Shown here piece by piece: positions 1,976 through 15,761 of a DNA stretch of 64,000 nucleotides. Origin of the DNA: an uncultured Campylobacter sp. GTDB taxonomy: Bacteria; Campylobacterota; Campylobacteria; Campylobacterales; Campylobacteraceae. Below the pieces are notes generated by a model. The model worked only from the letters and a program-made list of their open reading frames with translations, had not been told where the DNA came from and ran no database searches. Positions within the stretch are counted from its first letter, which is position 1, and every line of letters starts with the position of its first letter. A program made the translations under genes and the position numbers. The DNA is taken from positions 3,227 to 67,226 of the forward strand of contig CAKVAF010000011.1 in NCBI GenBank assembly GCA_934718785.1. Reading direction: 5' to 3'.

Positions 1976-4180
1976 CTAAAGCCTGACGACTTTTGCGCCG
2001 TAACCGCCTTGATTTATCGGTGCGTCGCTAAAGCTTTTGACACTTTTATGCGCTTTTAAAAACTCTTTTACCGCGTAGGCTAATTTTCCTGTGCCTATGC
2101 CATGATAAACAATCACTTCATCAAAGCCTGCTATTAAAGCGTCTGAGATGAATTTATCAAGTCTATCAAGGGCTTCTTCGGCTCTTAAGCCGTGCAAATC
2201 AAGGCTCATACTAGCGGTGTTTGGCTTTTGCACCTCAAAGCTGGTTTTTAAGGCTTGTTTTAAAGGTTCGCTACTTTTTTGAAGTAAATTTAAGCCCACG
2301 CGAAGCACGATTCCGCCACTTTCAATGCTAGCTTCATTTTTATGAAGTGCTTTAACAACGCCCTTTAGCTTGCCATATTTTACAAAATCGCCTATTTTTA
2401 AATCATCAGGCTTACTAAATTTAGGCTTTTGAATGCTTTTTTTAAGCTCAAAGGCCATATTTAAGGCTCTTTGCTTGTCTTTAATGTCGCTTAATCTTAT
2501 GCTTTTTTTAGCCTCCTCGCTTGCCTTAAAATACTCATTTTCAAGGTGGCTAAGCTCATTTTTAAGCGAAATTTCAGCAACTTGCTTTTGCTCTTTAAGC
2601 TCTTTTAAAAGCTCGTTTGCGCGAAGCTCTTTTTGCTCTAAAGCCCTTAATTTAGTCTTTAGCTCAAGCTCTAAATGAATGCTTTTGCTCACTAACTCTT
2701 CTAAATTTTCTTTATCTTCTCCATATCTTTTCTTTGCCTCAGCGATTAAATTACTAGAAACACCATATCTTAAAGCCGTCTCAAAGGCATAAGATTTACC
2801 GATAATGCCTTGCAAAAACTCATATTTTGGACGCGCTAATTTTTCATCATATAAAGCCGCCATAAGCTCTACTTGCTCGTTTTTTGCAAGCAAAAAGGCA
2901 AGGCGTTTGTGATGGGTTGTCAGCACGATTTTAACCCCTTGTAAAATGAGCTTTTCTATCAACACGCTATATAAACTGCTCGCTTCTTCAAAATCCGTTC
3001 CAAGCTCGATTTCATCGACTTCCAAAAGTAAATCTTTTTGATTAAAAAGTTTTGAAAAGGCTAGCATACGCCCGGCAAAAGTTGAAATGTCGTTTTTAGC
3101 ATTTTGTGGATCTTCTAAAATGAGTGCAAAGTCCTTAAAAGAGCCGATCCTACTCTCACTTGCTTTGATGTGCATAGGCAAAAGGTATTTTGAGAGCAGG
3201 CAAGCTGTGCAAATGCTCTTTAAAAGCATAGTTTTACCGCCTGCATTCACTCCTGTAATGATTAAAACTTGCTTTGTAAAGCTCACGCTCACGCTTTTGC
3301 CCTGTTTTAAAATGGGATGAATGAAGTTTTTTAGCACGATTTGCTTAGAATTTGGCGTGCTTAAAACAAATTCTAAATCCTTTTTCTTTGCCAAAATCAC
3401 GCGCGCAGCGTAGCTATCAAAGATATCAAAAGCCTTATTTAAAAAGCTTAAATTCCTTAAATGCTTGTAAAAAAGCGCGCTAAAACTTTTAGCATATTCA
3501 TAAAATATAGCTTCTTTTTCATTTTTAAGGCGCAAAAGCTCATTATTTAGGCTCTCAATGCCAGCTGGCACTATGTAAAAGCCGCCTGAACTGCTTCTAG
3601 CAATTACATTTGCCTTTAAAACATGATTAAAGCCTCCTCGCACTAAAAGCGCTTCTTCTTCATTTATGAGATGAATTTGTGTGTCGATGAGATAGGGTGC
3701 AAGTGCCTTTGTGTAGGCGATTTTCTTAAACTCAGCCTTGATTTGCTCTCTTTTAAGCCTTAAAGAAAGATTTAAATTTCTAAGCCTTTCATCGCTTTCT
3801 TCTTTAAGCTCGCCTTTGTCGCTAAATTTAAAAGCTATATCTAAAAGCTCGTTTTCAATGTCTATTTTATCAAGCCAAGAAGCGATTTCATCTTCAAATT
3901 TAAGCCCTTTTAAATAGCGAAAATAAAGGCAAATTTTAACAAACTCAAAGCAATGCTCAAGGTGCAAAACGCCTTGTTTGCTTAAATGTGCCAGCTCAGT
4001 GTCTAAATTTTTCACATTTGGCGGGGGATTAAAATCCATCTTAGCCAGGCTTTGAATGCGCTTAAAATGAAGCGTGCTATCTCCTTGTAAAAACACGCTT
4101 TTTTCGCGTGCTAAAAGGGAGTTGAACTCGTTTAGATACTGGCTTAAATCAAGCTTTTCAAATAAAAATTTCAATGACAA
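1976..4180 (-). CDS. mutS2: MutS2-type DNA-binding ATPase with C-terminal Smr nuclease domain
   Basis: 734 residues, normal for epsilonproteobacterial MutS2. The MutS core and clamp are followed by Walker A VNAGGKTML near residue 312, Walker B ILEDP and LLEVDEIELG, and a signature region rich in Ser/Thr. A long Lys/Glu-rich coiled coil (about 490-590) precedes the C-terminal Smr domain, recognisable by LDLHGLRAEEAL and VYHGIGTGKL. MutS2 proteins lack mismatch recognition; roles in suppressing recombination and in stalled-ribosome rescue are known in other species, and Helicobacter MutS2 has been tied to oxidative DNA damage. The start overlaps the end of the small membrane gene upstream by ten bases, so it is probably co-transcribed with that gene and murC. 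Confidence 0.95.
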   Translation of the reverse strand: MSLKFLFEKLDLSQYLNEFNSLLAREKSVFLQGDSTLHFKRIQSLAKMDFNPPPNVKNLDTELAHLSKQGVLHLEHCFEFVKICLYFRYLKGLKFEDEIASWLDKIDIENELLDIAFKFSDKGELKEESDERLRNLNLSLRLKREQIKAEFKKIAYTKALAPYLIDTQIHLINEEEALLVRGGFNHVLKANVIARSSSGGFYIVPAGIESLNNELLRLKNEKEAIFYEYAKSFSALFYKHLRNLSFLNKAFDIFDSYAARVILAKKKDLEFVLSTPNSKQIVLKNFIHPILKQGKSVSVSFTKQVLIITGVNAGGKTMLLKSICTACLLSKYLLPMHIKASESRIGSFKDFALILEDPQNAKNDISTFAGRMLAFSKLFNQKDLLLEVDEIELGTDFEEASSLYSVLIEKLILQGVKIVLTTHHKRLAFLLAKNEQVELMAALYDEKLARPKYEFLQGIIGKSYAFETALRYGVSSNLIAEAKKRYGEDKENLEELVSKSIHLELELKTKLRALEQKELRANELLKELKEQKQVAEISLKNELSHLENEYFKASEEAKKSIRLSDIKDKQRALNMAFELKKSIQKPKFSKPDDLKIGDFVKYGKLKGVVKALHKNEASIESGGIVLRVGLNLLQKSSEPLKQALKTSFEVQKPNTASMSLDLHGLRAEEALDRLDKFISDALIAGFDEVIVYHGIGTGKLAYAVKEFLKAHKSVKSFSDAPINQGGYGAKVVRL

Positions 4181-4509
4181 TCTTTGATAGAAAATTTCAA
4201 ATTTCTAAGGCTTTCATTTTTATCTTTTGCGATGAATGCCTTTGTGCCATAATCAAAATTAAAATTCTCAAGGCTTACATTAATATCCTTACAAATCAGG
4301 CTTTGTCCTTGAAAAAAAGAAGTGATACGCTGCGTTTGCAAGCTATTTTCACGCGCAGAATTAAGCTCAAAAATTATCATAAAAGCACAAATAATGATAA
4401 AAAATAAGATAAAAAAATGATAAGCTTTATCTCTTAATTTTTTCCTAAGCGAGTAAGTAAGTGCGCTTAAAAGCACGACAAGCAAGATAAAAAGTAAAAT
4501 TCTAGCCAT
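4171..4509 (-). CDS. Small membrane-anchored protein between murC and mutS2
   Basis: 112 residues. The first 18 or so residues are a hydrophobic segment (ILLFILLVVLLSALTYSL), a basic patch RKKLRDK follows, then a second hydrophobic stretch about residues 31-49 (FFILFFIIICAFMIIF). The remaining 60 residues are hydrophilic and probably outside the membrane. It overlaps murC by eight bases and mutS2 by ten, so the three genes are translationally linked. A membrane protein of this kind sits in the same place in C. jejuni (Cj1053c as I recall). No function is assigned; its conserved place next to murC is the only hint. Confidence 0.8.
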   Translation of the reverse strand: MARILLFILLVVLLSALTYSLRKKLRDKAYHFFILFFIIICAFMIIFELNSARENSLQTQRITSFFQGQSLICKDINVSLENFNFDYGTKAFIAKDKNESLRNLKFSIKDCH

Positions 4510-5797
4510 TTTTTCCCCTTAATTTCTCGCTCAAACTGCCCGCACTAAAGCCTATGATAAGCCCCTCATCAAGCACTGCGCCCCTATCATCGACAAGAAA
4601 TTTACCCTCTCTTTTAATGTCTTTTATAAACTTAGCATTCTTAAAAGTATCCTTTAAATTTAGCTTAATCTCAGCCTCGCCCGCACTATAAACGGGCAAA
4701 ATCACAAGCTCATCCATGCTTTCAAAAGCCTTAGCAAATTCTTTTAAATTCGCAGCTAAACGCGTGTAGCGGTGTGGCTCAAATAAAGCGGTGATTTTTT
4801 TAAAGCCTGCAAGCTTAGCATATTCTTTAGCTGCTTTTAAGGTGGCTGTGATTTCGCTAGGGTGGTGGCCGTAATCATCGATGATAGCTAGGTTTTTATC
4901 CGCATATAAAATGTCAAAGCGTTTTTTAATACCCTGATAATTGCGAAGCCTTGTTTTAATAGTCTCTAAAGGCTCGAAATTTAGGGCTGCTAAGATAGCA
5001 AGGCTTGCATCAAGGGCTAAATGCTCACCCATTCCTAAAATGCTAAACTCGCCAAAGTCCCTAAGCTCAAAGCTTATAAAGGGCTTGAAATCAATCACGC
5101 TCATTTTGAGATTTTTAATCTCCTTGCTAGGATAAAGCCTTGTAGCATCTAGGTTTAGGGTGCTTAAAAACTCATCTTCAGCGTTGATAACGCGGATTTT
5201 AGCCAAGCTTAAAAAATCACTATAAGCTTTTTGAAGGCTTGATAATTTATTATCATAATGCTCTAAATGCTCGGCTTCTGCGTTGGTAACCACGGCTAAA
5301 TAAGGATTTGAATTTAAAAATGAACTATCGCTTTCATCGGCTTCAAAGACGAGTTTGTCGCTGTTTTTGTATATCATATTTGAGCCAAATTCTTTCAAAA
5401 TCGCCCCGATAATCACAGAAGCATCGCTTATAAGCGTGGCTAAAATGCTTGAGGTGGTGCTTTTTCCGTGCGCTCCAGCCACTGCGATGACCTTTTTATC
5501 TTGCAAAATCAAAGGCAAGGCTTCTTTGCGAGATAAGCATTTAATGTCTAGCTTTTTAGCTTCTTTAAGCTCGACATTTTCAGGCTTTATCGCTGCTGAG
5601 TATATCACTAAATCAGCCCCTAAAACATTTTGAGCATTGTGCGGGATAGAAATTTTCACGCCCTCGCTGGCTAGCTCGCCTGTGATTTTGCTCTCTTTTA
5701 AATCACTGCCACTGATTTGATAGCCCTTTTCTTTTAAAAAACGCGCTAGGGCTGAAATGCCTATACCACCGATACCGATGAAGTGAATTTTTTCCAT
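4502..5797 (-). CDS. murC: UDP-N-acetylmuramate--L-alanine ligase
   Basis: 431 residues. The N-terminal Rossmann motif IHFIGIGGIGISALA is diagnostic of MurC, which adds L-alanine to UDP-MurNAc with ATP in the cytoplasm, the first step of the peptidoglycan stem peptide. The ATP loop GAHGKSTTSS lies near residue 108; the central-domain EADESDSSF and the C-terminal DDYGHHPSEI and EPHRYTR are also present, so the active site looks intact. The start ATG at 5797 is followed at once by the Rossmann motif. It is the first gene of a minus-strand group with the small membrane protein and mutS2, facing away from the antiporter gene across about 200 bases. Confidence 0.97.
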   Translation of the reverse strand: MEKIHFIGIGGIGISALARFLKEKGYQISGSDLKESKITGELASEGVKISIPHNAQNVLGADLVIYSAAIKPENVELKEAKKLDIKCLSRKEALPLILQDKKVIAVAGAHGKSTTSSILATLISDASVIIGAILKEFGSNMIYKNSDKLVFEADESDSSFLNSNPYLAVVTNAEAEHLEHYDNKLSSLQKAYSDFLSLAKIRVINAEDEFLSTLNLDATRLYPSKEIKNLKMSVIDFKPFISFELRDFGEFSILGMGEHLALDASLAILAALNFEPLETIKTRLRNYQGIKKRFDILYADKNLAIIDDYGHHPSEITATLKAAKEYAKLAGFKKITALFEPHRYTRLAANLKEFAKAFESMDELVILPVYSAGEAEIKLNLKDTFKNAKFIKDIKREGKFLVDDRGAVLDEGLIIGFSAGSLSEKLRGKNG

Positions 5798-12416: not shown

Positions 12417-12785
12417 ATGAAAAAGAAAATTCTATTTGCAATTTTAACAGCAAGTTTTCTAGCAGGTTGTGGCGAGAACTTAAAAGAATTGCCAAAGGAA
12501 ATTACAGAGAATAAAAAATTTACCCAATGTGATAAAATTCTCAATGAGTTTTTAGATTACAAGGGTTGGAACTGGAGTAAATTTTTAGAAGTGAGTAAAA
12601 CGCAAAGAGAAAATGGAGAATCTTTATTACAAAGAAGATCGCTAGCAAGTATAGATTCTCATAGAGAAGTTCAGTATGAAATTTGCTTTTATAATCTAGA
12701 AGATGAGTCAAAGCCTGAAGCGGTGTTAGAAATCCTTAAAGAAAATTATAAAAGGCTCTGTTGTAATAAAGCGTTGATTTATTAA
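12417..12785 (+). CDS. Small lipoprotein, C-terminus altered by transposon insertion
   Basis: 122 residues from ATG 12417, chosen because AAAGGA stands six bases upstream and the protein then begins with a lipoprotein signal (KKKILFAILTASFLAGC, lipobox LAGC, Cys near residue 18). A longer frame from 12360 would begin inside the promoter. The mature part is hydrophilic with Trp and Cys residues; no family is recognised. The last ten residues (RLCCNKALIY) are encoded by the left end of the IS1595-like element. Joining the sequence across the 8-bp target duplication restores a protein ending ENYKNY and stopping at the TAA just right of the element, so the insertion only exchanged the final two residues for ten. 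The product may still be functional. Confidence 0.8.
   Translation: MKKKILFAILTASFLAGCGENLKELPKEITENKKFTQCDKILNEFLDYKGWNWSKFLEVSKTQRENGESLLQRRSLASIDSHREVQYEICFYNLEDESKPEAVLEILKENYKRLCCNKALIY
12746..12780. repeat. Left target duplication and left terminal inverted repeat of the R-M transposon
   Basis: The 8-bp TTATAAAA (12746-12753) is repeated exactly at 15754-15761. The element begins at 12754 with GGCTCTGTTGTAAT, which is identical to the first 14 bases of the right end read inward; over 27 bases 22 match. An 8-bp duplication is the usual size for IS1595-family insertion. Confidence 0.92.
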
Positions 12786-12833
12786 CAAATAAAAAGTGTC
12801 AAAATCGCACTTTAATTTAATAAAATATGCTTT

Positions 12834-13457
12834 TCATCCGCTATCAAAAATCTTATTATTTACTAGCATTTCCTTTAATATAAAAGGGTAGCCCTTTGCC
12901 TTTTTATCCCAACTATCAATATATGTTTTTAAGATATATCGTATAGCTTCAATTTCGCTACGACTACTAAAATCACGATTTTGCGACCAATCGCATTGAA
13001 AGGGTAAATTATTGCCATTTGAAGTTAGCGTTTTTATACGCTTTAACGAAGTCCAAAAACAATCACTCGTGTTATTTTTATTAACTACTAAAAAATAATA
13101 ATCGTAACCTGTTTTTAGTTCATTAGCTAATATTTGATGAAATTTTTCCCAGTGTATAGGTAAATTTTCAATACCACAAAGTGCATACCCCATACCAAGT
13201 TTAGAGCTACAATTATCAGCTGAGTTATTTGATAAATCCGATATCTTCACATTTACAAAAAGTTTGTTCTGTAATTGCATTACAAAATCATACCAACACC
13301 TTACTTGTGGTATATTTATATCAAATTTAGTGGATAATTTATCTAAAACAATATTTTCATTTGTAGCAGAATTTATTCTACCGTCATCATTGTCATTTAT
13401 TAATCTTACTGGATTTTCTCGTAAAAAATCAACCATATCTTGTAAATATATTATCAT
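12834..13457 (-). CDS. Putative type II restriction endonuclease (transposon passenger)
   Basis: 207 residues. No named endonuclease is recognised. Its place directly behind a DNA methyltransferase, with a 29-base overlap, indicates the restriction partner. A possible PD-(D/E)xK core is visible: Asp57 in CWYDFVMQ, then Asn69-Val-Lys71 in LFVNVKIS, with Glu34 in the preceding helix as a candidate for the missing acidic residue; Asn in place of Glu in the xK half is seen in some endonuclease families. Translation could start at 13457 or at the second Met (13436); both lie inside the end of the methyltransferase gene, so translation is coupled and follows the methyltransferase. The recognition sequence cannot be predicted. 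Confidence 0.7.
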   Translation of the reverse strand: MIIYLQDMVDFLRENPVRLINDNDDGRINSATNENIVLDKLSTKFDINIPQVRCWYDFVMQLQNKLFVNVKISDLSNNSADNCSSKLGMGYALCGIENLPIHWEKFHQILANELKTGYDYYFLVVNKNNTSDCFWTSLKRIKTLTSNGNNLPFQCDWSQNRDFSSRSEIEAIRYILKTYIDSWDKKAKGYPFILKEMLVNNKIFDSG

Positions 13458-14634
13458 CTATCATCGCTTCCTTTAATGATTTTTGAGCAAAAATATATCT
13501 ACCGCCAGTCATAAAGCCCATTTGTTCCCAATCTAGCGAATTTAATTGCTCTACTGTTTTTTCCAAATTTAATGGCACTTTTGGGAATAATGCTAAAACA
13601 GAGCCGTCCCATTTTTTACAATCACTTACAAAAAACGGATTTTTATTGCGAGTTTTGCAATTTACATAAATTCTAAGCTCATTTTCTCTAAAATTTACAG
13701 CTCTACCCCAGCCCCACCAATTATTTTCATTGAAATTTTTAATCTTGCGATTTATCAAAATATCTTTAAATTTTTCAAGCTCTTTATCATATCTTTCATA
13801 AATCATCTTTTTTAGCTTGCCAGTTTTAGCAGTCTGCGAATAAACAAATTCATCGCCATTTTCGTTAACAAACAGCTCATCTTTACCACTGACAGCACCT
13901 ACTTTAATATCAAAAAAATCGCCCAAAGAACGCACATTTAAAGTATTACTAAAACAGATTATTCCGTCATTTATAAGTAGAAATTTCTTGCCATTAAAAG
14001 TCTTTGTTTTGTATGAAAAATTTCCTTTTTCATATCTAAAAATACAAACATTAGGACAAGCTTCGCTAAATAATCTCTCATCACCATAATCATAAAAATG
14101 CGTGATAGTTCCATATTTTAAAAGCAGATTATTTGTGTATCTTGCCGAAGTAAGCTTTATAAAATCTCGTGGCACGATAAAAATAAGTTCTCCATTATCT
14201 TTTAAATGATGAAAGCATTTTTCTATAAAATAAAGGTATAAATTTGCTTCAACTTTAATGTCTGTTTTATGAGTAATAGTTAAAAATTTATTATCCACAT
14301 AGGGTGGATTGCCAATAATCGTGTCAAATTTTTCGCTTTGTGGATAATTAAAAAAATCAATATTTAAAACTCTTTTATCTTTAACTAGACTTTTATCAAT
14401 CTCAATAAAAACCGCATTTTCATTAAGACATTTTTTAAATGCCAAATCACCACAACTAGGCTCTAAAATTCTGCCATTTTTATTTTTTATCAAAGAAATA
14501 CACTTATCAACTAAAATTTTAGGGCTAAAAAATTGCCCCAAATTACGATTTAGTCCTAAATTTGTATATTGACTTTTTGCAATATGTGTATCAAAATTGT
14601 AGTTTTCTATGGTATTTGAAGCTTTACTTATCAT
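13429..14634 (-). CDS. Type II N6-adenine DNA methyltransferase (transposon passenger)
   Basis: 401 residues. Motif X is GQFFSP (33-38), motif I is EPSCGD (58-63), with FIEID (76-80) binding the SAM ribose, and motif IV is NPPY (109-112), the adenine-N6 signature. The order X-I-IV with the target-recognition region in the C-terminal half places it in the gamma class, like M.TaqI. It would protect host DNA from the downstream endonuclease. ATG 14634 follows AAGGG. The gene starts 14 bases after the transposase stop. All catalytic motifs look intact, so the protein is probably active; its target sequence is unknown. Confidence 0.9.
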   Translation of the reverse strand: MISKASNTIENYNFDTHIAKSQYTNLGLNRNLGQFFSPKILVDKCISLIKNKNGRILEPSCGDLAFKKCLNENAVFIEIDKSLVKDKRVLNIDFFNYPQSEKFDTIIGNPPYVDNKFLTITHKTDIKVEANLYLYFIEKCFHHLKDNGELIFIVPRDFIKLTSARYTNNLLLKYGTITHFYDYGDERLFSEACPNVCIFRYEKGNFSYKTKTFNGKKFLLINDGIICFSNTLNVRSLGDFFDIKVGAVSGKDELFVNENGDEFVYSQTAKTGKLKKMIYERYDKELEKFKDILINRKIKNFNENNWWGWGRAVNFRENELRIYVNCKTRNKNPFFVSDCKKWDGSVLALFPKVPLNLEKTVEQLNSLDWEQMGFMTGGRYIFAQKSLKEAMIDDNIFTRYG

Positions 14635-14648
14635 TTTAACCCTTGTTT

Positions 14649-15671
14649 CTATGCCACCAACAACGGCACAACAGGTCTATCTACTATATTCACACTCTTT
14701 ACTAAACAATTAGTTTCAAGTATATGCTTAAATAAAATTTGTTCTTTTTTCAAATTTGTTTCCTTTGTAAAATTTACAAAATTATGATAGACAAGATAGT
14801 TGTTAAGATACTTTGTAGATACTCCTTTAAAATTATACACTAGCATTGATTTAAGACAGCTGTGATAATTATTTACTACTTGGATATTAAAACTTCCATT
14901 AGAGTGTTTATTGCGTGGTATTCTTATGTGATTTAAACTCATTTCGTTTGATAGTTTTAAATAGCTTCTTAAACTATCTGTTACAAATATACTCTCACGC
15001 TCAATCCTACCCTGTATTACTCTGGATAAACTAACAATATTTGGTTTGCCTAAATTTGATATTTTTGCTATAGACTTCCCATCTAAATTCACAGCACAAG
15101 GTATGCAAACTAACTCTTTTGATAAACCACGCTTCGTGTTTGCCGTGCCACGATGTTTTGCCGAACGCGGAAAATTAAAATCCTTGTGATGACCTTTATA
15201 CGAGATAGGCATAAATGTTTTATCGGCTTCAATAATGCCGTCAAGTTTTACATTCTCTTGCATTTCTTGTAGTGCGTCAAGAATTTTATGTCGCCAGTTA
15301 AAAGCTGTATGAGTGTTTATGTTGCAAATTTTAGCAGTTTTTCTAATTGAATATTTTTCAACTAAGCAATGGATAAATAATTTCCAAGTTGTCATATCTT
15401 TTTTAGTGGCAAATAATATTGTGTTATTGCTAGTTGTAAAAGTTTTACAACAATCCTTACAAATAAATCTTTGAGAGTTGCCATTTTTACCATTTTTAGT
15501 AAAATGGGCTGATTTACAATGCGGACACTCTTTTATATCTTTTATAAAGGCAAAATTTGACCCTGATTTTTCTTTTGATTTGATAGATTTTAGAAATGAT
15601 TTTTTATCATCAGCACTTAGAGTGCTAAAAAGTTGTTTTACGATTTCAAGCCCTGCTTTAGAAGTTGCCAT
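14649..15671 (-). CDS. IS1595-family (ISXO2-like) transposase
   Basis: 340 residues. An N-terminal zinc ribbon is formed by Cys49, Cys52, Cys71 and Cys74 (CPHC and CKDC), followed by a helix-turn-helix-like segment (KYSIRKTAKICNINTHTAFNWRHKIL). The DDE-type domain follows, with candidate catalytic residues in IIEADKTF (about residue 145) and FVTDSLRSY (about 223); the third position appears to be the Asn of VVNNYHSCLK, matching IS1595 subgroups with D-D-N as I recall. GVSTKYLNNYL near the end is a typical family ending. The gene fills the right half of the element and is intact, so the transposon may be autonomous. Confidence 0.9.
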   Translation of the reverse strand: MATSKAGLEIVKQLFSTLSADDKKSFLKSIKSKEKSGSNFAFIKDIKECPHCKSAHFTKNGKNGNSQRFICKDCCKTFTTSNNTILFATKKDMTTWKLFIHCLVEKYSIRKTAKICNINTHTAFNWRHKILDALQEMQENVKLDGIIEADKTFMPISYKGHHKDFNFPRSAKHRGTANTKRGLSKELVCIPCAVNLDGKSIAKISNLGKPNIVSLSRVIQGRIERESIFVTDSLRSYLKLSNEMSLNHIRIPRNKHSNGSFNIQVVNNYHSCLKSMLVYNFKGVSTKYLNNYLVYHNFVNFTKETNLKKEQILFKHILETNCLVKSVNIVDRPVVPLLVA

Positions 15672-15726
15672 TTTGCCACCTTTATTGATACTTTTAATAT
15701 GGATATTTTAGCGAGATAAAGCTTAA

Positions 15727-15761
15727 AATTCAATAGTTAATTACAACAGAGCCTTATAAAA
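15727..15761. repeat. Right terminal inverted repeat and right target duplication of the R-M transposon
   Basis: ATTACAACAGAGCC ends the element at 15753 and mirrors the left end; TTATAAAA (15754-15761) is the second copy of the target site. The following bases ATTACTAAAAT restore the original 3' end of the lipoprotein gene. Confidence 0.92.

Follow-up and report, generated by a model that had tools for sequence, protein, structure and literature searches.

An IS1595-family element in Campylobacter with a type II restriction-modification passenger, and a transposase lineage whose examined members carry exchangeable restriction-modification cargo

Introduction

Transporter insertion sequences (tIS) of the IS1595 family were reportedly described by Siguier, Gagnevin and Chandler in 2009. 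Insertion sequences (IS) with passenger genes, those of the IS1595 family included, are established (PMC3129680, PMC7986276, PMC11891212), examples being a regulator in ISNha5 (IS1595), a methyltransferase in IS220 (IS1380) and resistance genes in ISCgl1 (IS481) (PMC11891212). The term mobile insertion cassette (MIC) is also used in this literature (PMC3129680). Restriction-modification (R-M) systems, which are widespread in bacteria, are established on IS, transposons and other mobile DNA (PMC3031569, PMC4176335), and their reviewed carriers comprise plasmids, prophages, transposons, integrative and conjugative elements and integrons (PMC4176335). Here we describe a 3,000-bp element at positions 12754-15753 of a 64,000-nucleotide stretch of DNA from an uncultured Campylobacter sp. 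(GCA_934718785.1, contig CAKVAF010000011.1, positions 3,227 to 67,226), which we call the window. We are confident that it is an IS1595-family element with a type II R-M passenger, and that the members of its transposase clade that we examined carry R-M genes in the same slot. Insertion sequences with passengers and mobile R-M systems are both already known; what is apparently new is a lineage in which the passenger is always of one sort, an R-M system, and can be interchanged.

Results

The window element is bounded by inverted ends that are identical over 14 bp on reading the sequence (GGCTCTGTTGTAAT at 12754-12767, matched by the reverse complement of 15740-15753) and that agree at 22 of their first 27 positions by hand count. 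The cargo-side terminal inverted repeat spans 12754-12780 on the plus strand and the transposase-side repeat 15727-15753 on the minus strand, and these arms are the longest inverted repeat found in a repeat search of the window. With up to two mismatches allowed, the terminal 14-mer occurs at three sites in the window (shuffle mean 0.48), the two exact ones being the two ends. An exact 8-bp target duplication, TTATAAAA, flanks the element at 12746-12753 and 15754-15761, with no strand assigned to either copy. Elements of the IS1595 family typically duplicate 8 bp of target, encode a DDE-type triad with N and K, and have ends beginning GGC; here the ends start GGCTCTG, and the duplication is perfect in the window as well as in the two further copies described below. 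All three open reading frames (ORFs) lie on the minus strand and encode the transposase, a methyltransferase (M) and a putative endonuclease (R). As in a transporter IS, M and R sit between the transposase and the second end in all three copies; a composite transposon would have two flanking IS copies, whereas this element has one transposase and one pair of ends.

The transposase (14649-15671, minus strand; 340 residues) was assigned from its ORF, family models and alignment, scoring 177.4 bits against NF033547 (cut-off 75) and 37.3 against PF12762 (cut-off 27). It has a four-cysteine zinc ribbon and keeps the catalytic residues Asp150, Asp232, Asn267 and Lys274 (N267-x6-K274), which are present in 121, 118, 121 and 121 of 122 aligned rows, respectively. 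M (13429-14634, minus strand; 401 residues), identified from its ORF and profile matches and overlapping R by 29 bp, is a gamma-class N6-adenine DNA methyltransferase containing the motifs GQFFSP, ILEPSCGDLAF and NPPY; the labels 'beta' and 'gamma' are our own. Its matches to Eco57I (71.7 bits, cut-off 25.3) and to PADLOC MTase_II (E 6.3e-101) are those expected of the methyltransferase of a type II system. R (12834-13457, minus strand; 207 residues) is a putative type II endonuclease recognised from its ORF, structure prediction and alignment. It has a predicted SwaI/HincII/EcoRV-like fold together with a conserved coupling to M, as would befit the endonuclease of such a system, and conservation points to a candidate active site of Glu34, Asp57 and Asn69-x-Lys71, all of which are unchanged throughout the 40 aligned rows. 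The reading of M and R as a type II R-M system, with predicted cleavage and methylation, is supported.

An earlier note on this DNA had claimed a 3000-bp IS1595-type transposon with R-M genes, and the ends, duplication, three ORFs and family models bear this out. The 14-bp identical ends with 22 of 27 positions matched and the exact 8-bp duplication were found again on re-reading; the intact gamma-class adenine methyltransferase is upheld by the 401-residue ORF and its Eco57I and PADLOC matches, and the 207-residue putative endonuclease by its predicted fold. Its intact transposase stands as far as the open ORF, zinc ribbon and catalytic residues go, but with an atypical lysine beside Asp150.

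The element has moved as one unit and is found at three unrelated sites (genome and locus handles with G and L are our own). A second full copy, of 2,999 bp, lies at C1:1689270-1692268 of genome G063, is 98.4% identical over a 3,015-bp alignment, with 394 of 401 M residues identical, and has its own duplication, TTTTACTT. The third, at 2941-4982 of the IMG/VR viral contig L070, has the duplication TAAAAAAA and is 97.5% identical over 1,945 bp and 92.7% over 110 bp (R 96% and M 98% identical); 948 bp of the transposase region are gone, while both ends (one base altered in one of them), the leader, M and R are retained. The sparing of leader, M and R would fit a shared promoter, for which a putative -10 box, GCTAAAAT at 15705-15712 on the minus strand, picked out by eye from the alignment of leaders between end and transposase, is a candidate. 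Since the two further copies share the ends, occupy different sites and have perfect 8-bp duplications of their own, the unit is not a matter of chance. The window host and G063 are different species (gyrA 74%, ilvA 69% identical; the nearest gyrA to the window among 153 family genomes is 83%), and an element 98.4% identical in hosts with gyrA at 74% implies recent transfer between species. The earlier note's suggestion that transposition spreads the R-M module thus finds support in three insertions with three different duplications, and the comparison of insertion sites that it called for gives unrelated sites, all with the ends and a perfect duplication.

The lineage was surveyed with the transposase alone as query, not the R-M genes, in 153 Campylobacteraceae, 121 Helicobacteraceae and 83 Neisseriaceae genomes and in plasmid and viral records. 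Among the Campylobacteraceae, 10 genomes have 14 full-length copies between them and 12 of 153 have a match of some kind. Of the Helicobacteraceae genomes 8 of 121 gave matches, and of the Neisseriaceae genomes 5 of 83, two of the latter (41-42% identity) being treated as outgroup. With stricter cut-offs, searches of 369 Gammaproteobacteria and of 104 Arcobacteraceae gave no match, empty answers that carry little weight. The 27 clade loci examined are 14 from Campylobacteraceae (L120-L124, L126-L130, L133-L136), seven from Helicobacteraceae (L137-L143), three from Neisseriaceae (L153-L155), two plasmid records (L144, L145) and one viral contig (L147); three further plasmid-collection matches represent insertions already counted as L144 and L155. 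R-M genes are present at all 27, with L121, L128, L133-L136 and L144 scored by cargo equal to a scanned copy or to the window and L141 by an endonuclease fragment (69% identical). Among 40 cargo proteins from 19 clade loci, Pfam placed 32 in R-M or endonuclease families, at least one at each of the 19 (one of the 32 matches is HNH_2, in a protein that PADLOC calls REase_II), and PADLOC matched 8 of the 10 cargo proteins submitted to it. Genome G083 alone has five copies (L127, L128, L134, L135, L136), which differ from the first of them at no more than one position over 3,071 bp and have five different duplications; some loci being mutual copies of this kind, the independent cases number about 17 to 20.

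The window element and 19 of the 27 loci are delimited by ends and a perfect 8-bp duplication. The 21 duplications of these 20 elements and L070 are all different and are 94% A+T, against 67% in the flanks of the 20; the delimiting rule accepts 7 or 8 of 8 matching positions and keeps the best, and the list of 20 is the delimited subset, so that the set is to some extent biased towards perfect duplications. The first cargo ORF of at least 130 residues begins 11-31 bp past the transposase ORF and in the same direction in 15 of the 20 elements. For the remaining elements (L122, L137, L139, L143, L153) that distance is 132-447 bp, with a shorter ORF beginning 15-17 bp past the transposase in L137 and L139. 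A leader motif, GCTAWAAT, is exact in 7 of 14 aligned leaders and differs at one or two positions in the remainder.

By our own grouping, about 17 cargo types lie behind the transposase. The gamma methyltransferase with a SwaI-like R is shared by the window and G063. Other elements have a beta methyltransferase with a protein of 188-190 residues (G090, G008, C. coli plasmids), a Tsp45I-type endonuclease with a methyltransferase (G083; fragment in G205), an m5C methyltransferase with an enzyme having an NgoFVII-like C-terminus (G081), m5C methyltransferases with an HNH enzyme (G160b), or two D12 methyltransferases with an AlwI enzyme (G160a, G272; broken up in the H. pylori plasmid pY95). N6-methyltransferase systems, fused or split and mostly with a specificity subunit, are found in G065, G133, G061, G025, G035/G166, G247, L147 and G304. 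G161 has a fused enzyme of Eco57I type, G329 a type III Mod-Res pair, and G299 an N6/N4 methyltransferase with a 372-residue protein of no known family. The element on pY95 (L145) is rearranged, since its D12 methyltransferase ORF at 4235-5650 continues into an IS200-type transposase domain and the annotation places the AlwI-type enzyme across the IS1595 transposase from it. At 6392-15219 of L137 an 8,828-bp unit with one perfect duplication holds two inverted transposase copies, one of them truncated; its interior has R-M genes and four ORFs (117, 287, 249 and 231 residues), the last three without a Pfam match. L155, L163 and L165, from genome G304 and two N. gonorrhoeae records, represent an element with a truncated transposase, an N6-methyltransferase fragment and a specificity gene, inserted each time at the same site with the duplication TTCTATTT.

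Alignment of these elements with one another shows end, leader and transposase to be a conserved vehicle, with the part after the transposase stop evidently exchanged between unrelated R-M systems. Two elements in G160 are 99.3% identical over bp 1-1080 and unrelated beyond, and in G035 and G166 the cargo is 83.6% identical over 809 residues and the transposases 57% over 253. The window element matches L120, L122 and L124 at 73-78% identity from bp 1 or 2 to bp 1104-1131 and in no other part at 1e-5, its transposase stop falling at bp 1105, close to where the homology ends. Together these three comparisons indicate that vehicle and cargo have separate histories. Relatives of R occur at 69 loci in GTDB genomes (30-74% identity in the best segment), 67 of which have a match to M in the fetched stretches (up to 8 kb per side, less at contig ends), and M precedes R on one strand in all 16 of the closest (L001-L016). 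A tblastn search (1e-5) found no match to the transposase in the 74 fetched R-relative loci (69 GTDB and 5 viral, among them L070 with its deleted transposase), so that the M-R pair is an independent R-M system captured by the window element. Its relatives' hosts include Saccharibacteria, Bacteroidales, Mycoplasma relatives and others. Cyanophages also encode R relatives (H14-H33), and the P-HM2 match overlaps a feature named dam.

The window insertion lies in the last codons of a host gene for a small putative lipoprotein (12417-12753, plus strand; from the ORF list), which is without a Pfam match over cut-off; the right flank plus one copy of the duplication gives a frame ending ...KENYKNY-stop. 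Within M, the sequence TAAAACAGAGCC at 13594-13605 matches the left arm at 11 of 12 positions, with a comparable site in the G063 copy, and could be usable as an internal element end. Searches for tRNA, tmRNA and Rfam families over the 64-kb window gave zero matches, and among its host genes are those of the Hsp70, sigma-70, gyrase A and PheT types.

Discussion

On balance we lean towards regarding this transposase lineage of Campylobacterota and Neisseriaceae as a dedicated shuttle for interchangeable R-M modules rather than the bearer of an accidental passenger, with R-M systems swapped in a slot that starts at the transposase stop and with retention and spread depending on them. In a control on 20 elements (L126 in; L144 and L070 out), methyltransferase and specificity hidden Markov models (HMMs) matched only 4 of 204 ORFs of at least 130 residues outside the elements and at least one ORF inside each of the 20; the HMMs were built from this cargo, which makes the inside figure circular for most elements but not the outside one. 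Around eight outgroup transposases (29-43% identical; three are the same element), 0 of 75 nearby ORFs matched the R-M HMMs. All 18 Campylobacterota rows of the transposase tree, which keeps partial transposases and omits identical or near-identical copies (G008, four of the five G083 copies, L144, L149, L150), fall in one group with support of 93/99, just under the starred level, and no label shuffle out of 500 was as low as the 2 changes that the R-M label needs. Three of six transposase relics adjoin R-M-like ORFs (only a short one in L160).

Several observations pull the other way. The elements are rare (12 of 153 and 8 of 121 genomes), so that numbers are small, and 8 of the 27 loci could not be delimited because of contig ends, partial transposases or the lack of a detectable second end. 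L141 keeps only an endonuclease fragment, and in L137 the R-M genes adjoin the second, truncated transposase instead of standing directly behind the full one. The long-branch rows L156 and L157, which are without R-M genes, sit inside a supported fork of 24 rows (100/98), so the R-M label does not mark a single clade in the tree, and 0% of 200 bootstrap trees give it 1 change. The other three of the six relics (L131, L158, L161) have no R-M match nearby, nor do the short transposase-region DNA matches L092 and L095 within 1.5 kb. Finally, residue 151 of the window transposase (15219-15221), adjoining the catalytic Asp150, is Lys in 4 of 122 aligned rows (the window, P0143, P0178 and P0211) and Glu in 118, and may weaken this copy.

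Lys151 is also the first point in favour of the alternative that survives best, to which we give perhaps a quarter of our credence: that the window copy is an immobile relic, with an impaired transposase and an inactive R or M, its copies having spread by the transposases of other copies or by DNA uptake. Its ends agree at only 22 of 27 positions, and L070 stands at another site lacking most of its transposase, unless that was lost after insertion. Against this, all three ORFs are open, and the close identity of R and M between the copies, with the perfect duplication, argues for recent insertion.

A one-off event strikes us as improbable. On that account an ordinary IS1595 element captured an R-M pair, and the cargo of its relatives merely mirrors the R-M-rich genomes of Campylobacter and Helicobacter. 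Transporter IS with varied passengers are indeed known (PMC11891212, PMC3129680), and the 27 loci sampled include near-identical copies. But the search was by transposase and not by R-M genes, the flanking ORFs with R-M matches are few against a match in every element, and the pattern reaches Neisseriaceae and a viral contig with about 17 systems behind the transposase.

It is very unlikely that the 207-residue protein is some other accessory protein and not the cognate endonuclease. Neither Pfam nor NCBIfam has a model that it matches over cut-off, and it matches no sequence in PADLOC or the PDB. Of its D...(D/E)xK motif Asp57 and Lys71 are invariant, but the middle position is Asn69 in 40 of 40 rows, where most PD-(D/E)xK nucleases have an acidic residue. 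The predicted fold and the coupling to M speak for an endonuclease. That R-M pair and IS are mere neighbours, by chance or separate insertion and without joint movement, is refuted to our satisfaction, for although the M-R pair occurs without this transposase in the fetched stretches of 69 GTDB loci, the ends enclose three genes, three insertions have three duplications, and L070 still has M and R with most of its transposase gone.

With the element read as an IS1595 transposon that carries an R-M system, the transposase would cut and join at the two ends, and M and R would be read as one unit behind it, M first, so that a newcomer element would methylate its host before R appears. M would protect, R would cut unmodified DNA, and the system would then defend the host, making loss of the element costly. 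Our guess is that a new R-M system might enter the slot by way of a second, cargo-distal end, supplied by two neighbouring copies or by a sequence resembling an end on the far side of an adjacent R-M locus, which the two inverted transposase copies around the R-M genes of L137 would fit.

The findings suggest one transposase lineage specialised in moving bacterial immune modules, in which a vehicle of about 1.1 kb with clean ends takes R-M cargo that ranges from type II systems of the m5C and adenine kinds, by way of fused and specificity-subunit forms, to type III. This makes it testable how Campylobacter and Helicobacter strains gain and exchange methylation patterns, whether R-M systems aid the persistence of the transposon that carries them and how a transposon changes cargo, and the five near-identical copies in G083 are a natural experiment in recent spread.

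Comparison with known systems

The accessible text of four accounts of IS1595 elements (PMC6211672, PMC8504540, PMC3339403, PMC7371123) does not describe a lineage with R-M cargo, and a literature search whose scope took in few subscription papers returned no account of one with regular, exchangeable R-M cargo. The window element resembles the transporter IS in its IS1595 transposase, short inverted ends and internal passengers unrelated to transposition, whereas in the accessible parts of the tIS literature we found no mention of a lineage with complete, exchangeable R-M systems as its regular cargo. ISCaje5, the NCBI name for the transposase on the Campylobacter coli plasmids pAR-0411 and FDAARGOS_1466 unnamed1, is 76.5% identical to the window transposase and belongs to an element of the same architecture, delimited at 2,899 bp and flanked by a duplication of its own, but its methyltransferase and 188-residue second protein are unrelated to M and R; NCBI annotates a site-specific DNA-methyltransferase beside it, and the ISfinder entry may already list passengers. 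ISSag10 elements likewise have an IS1595 transposase followed by cargo inside matching ends, with 8-bp duplications, but the transposase is 42% identical, the cargo is of resistance type (lnuC beside the transposase in one plasmid record) and they fall outside the R-M group on the tree. The L070 copy is like a MIC in having the same ends and its passengers with most of the transposase gone, unlike the window copy, which keeps its transposase. R itself shares a predicted fold with R.SwaI, HincII and EcoRV, yet no detectable sequence relation. In composite transposons and other IS-linked R-M systems, as covered in the accessible text of PMC3031569, IS functions also move R-M genes and R-M systems select for their own retention, but there the R-M genes are flanked by IS copies or lie on plasmids, whereas in the window M and R are inside one IS and follow a single transposase.

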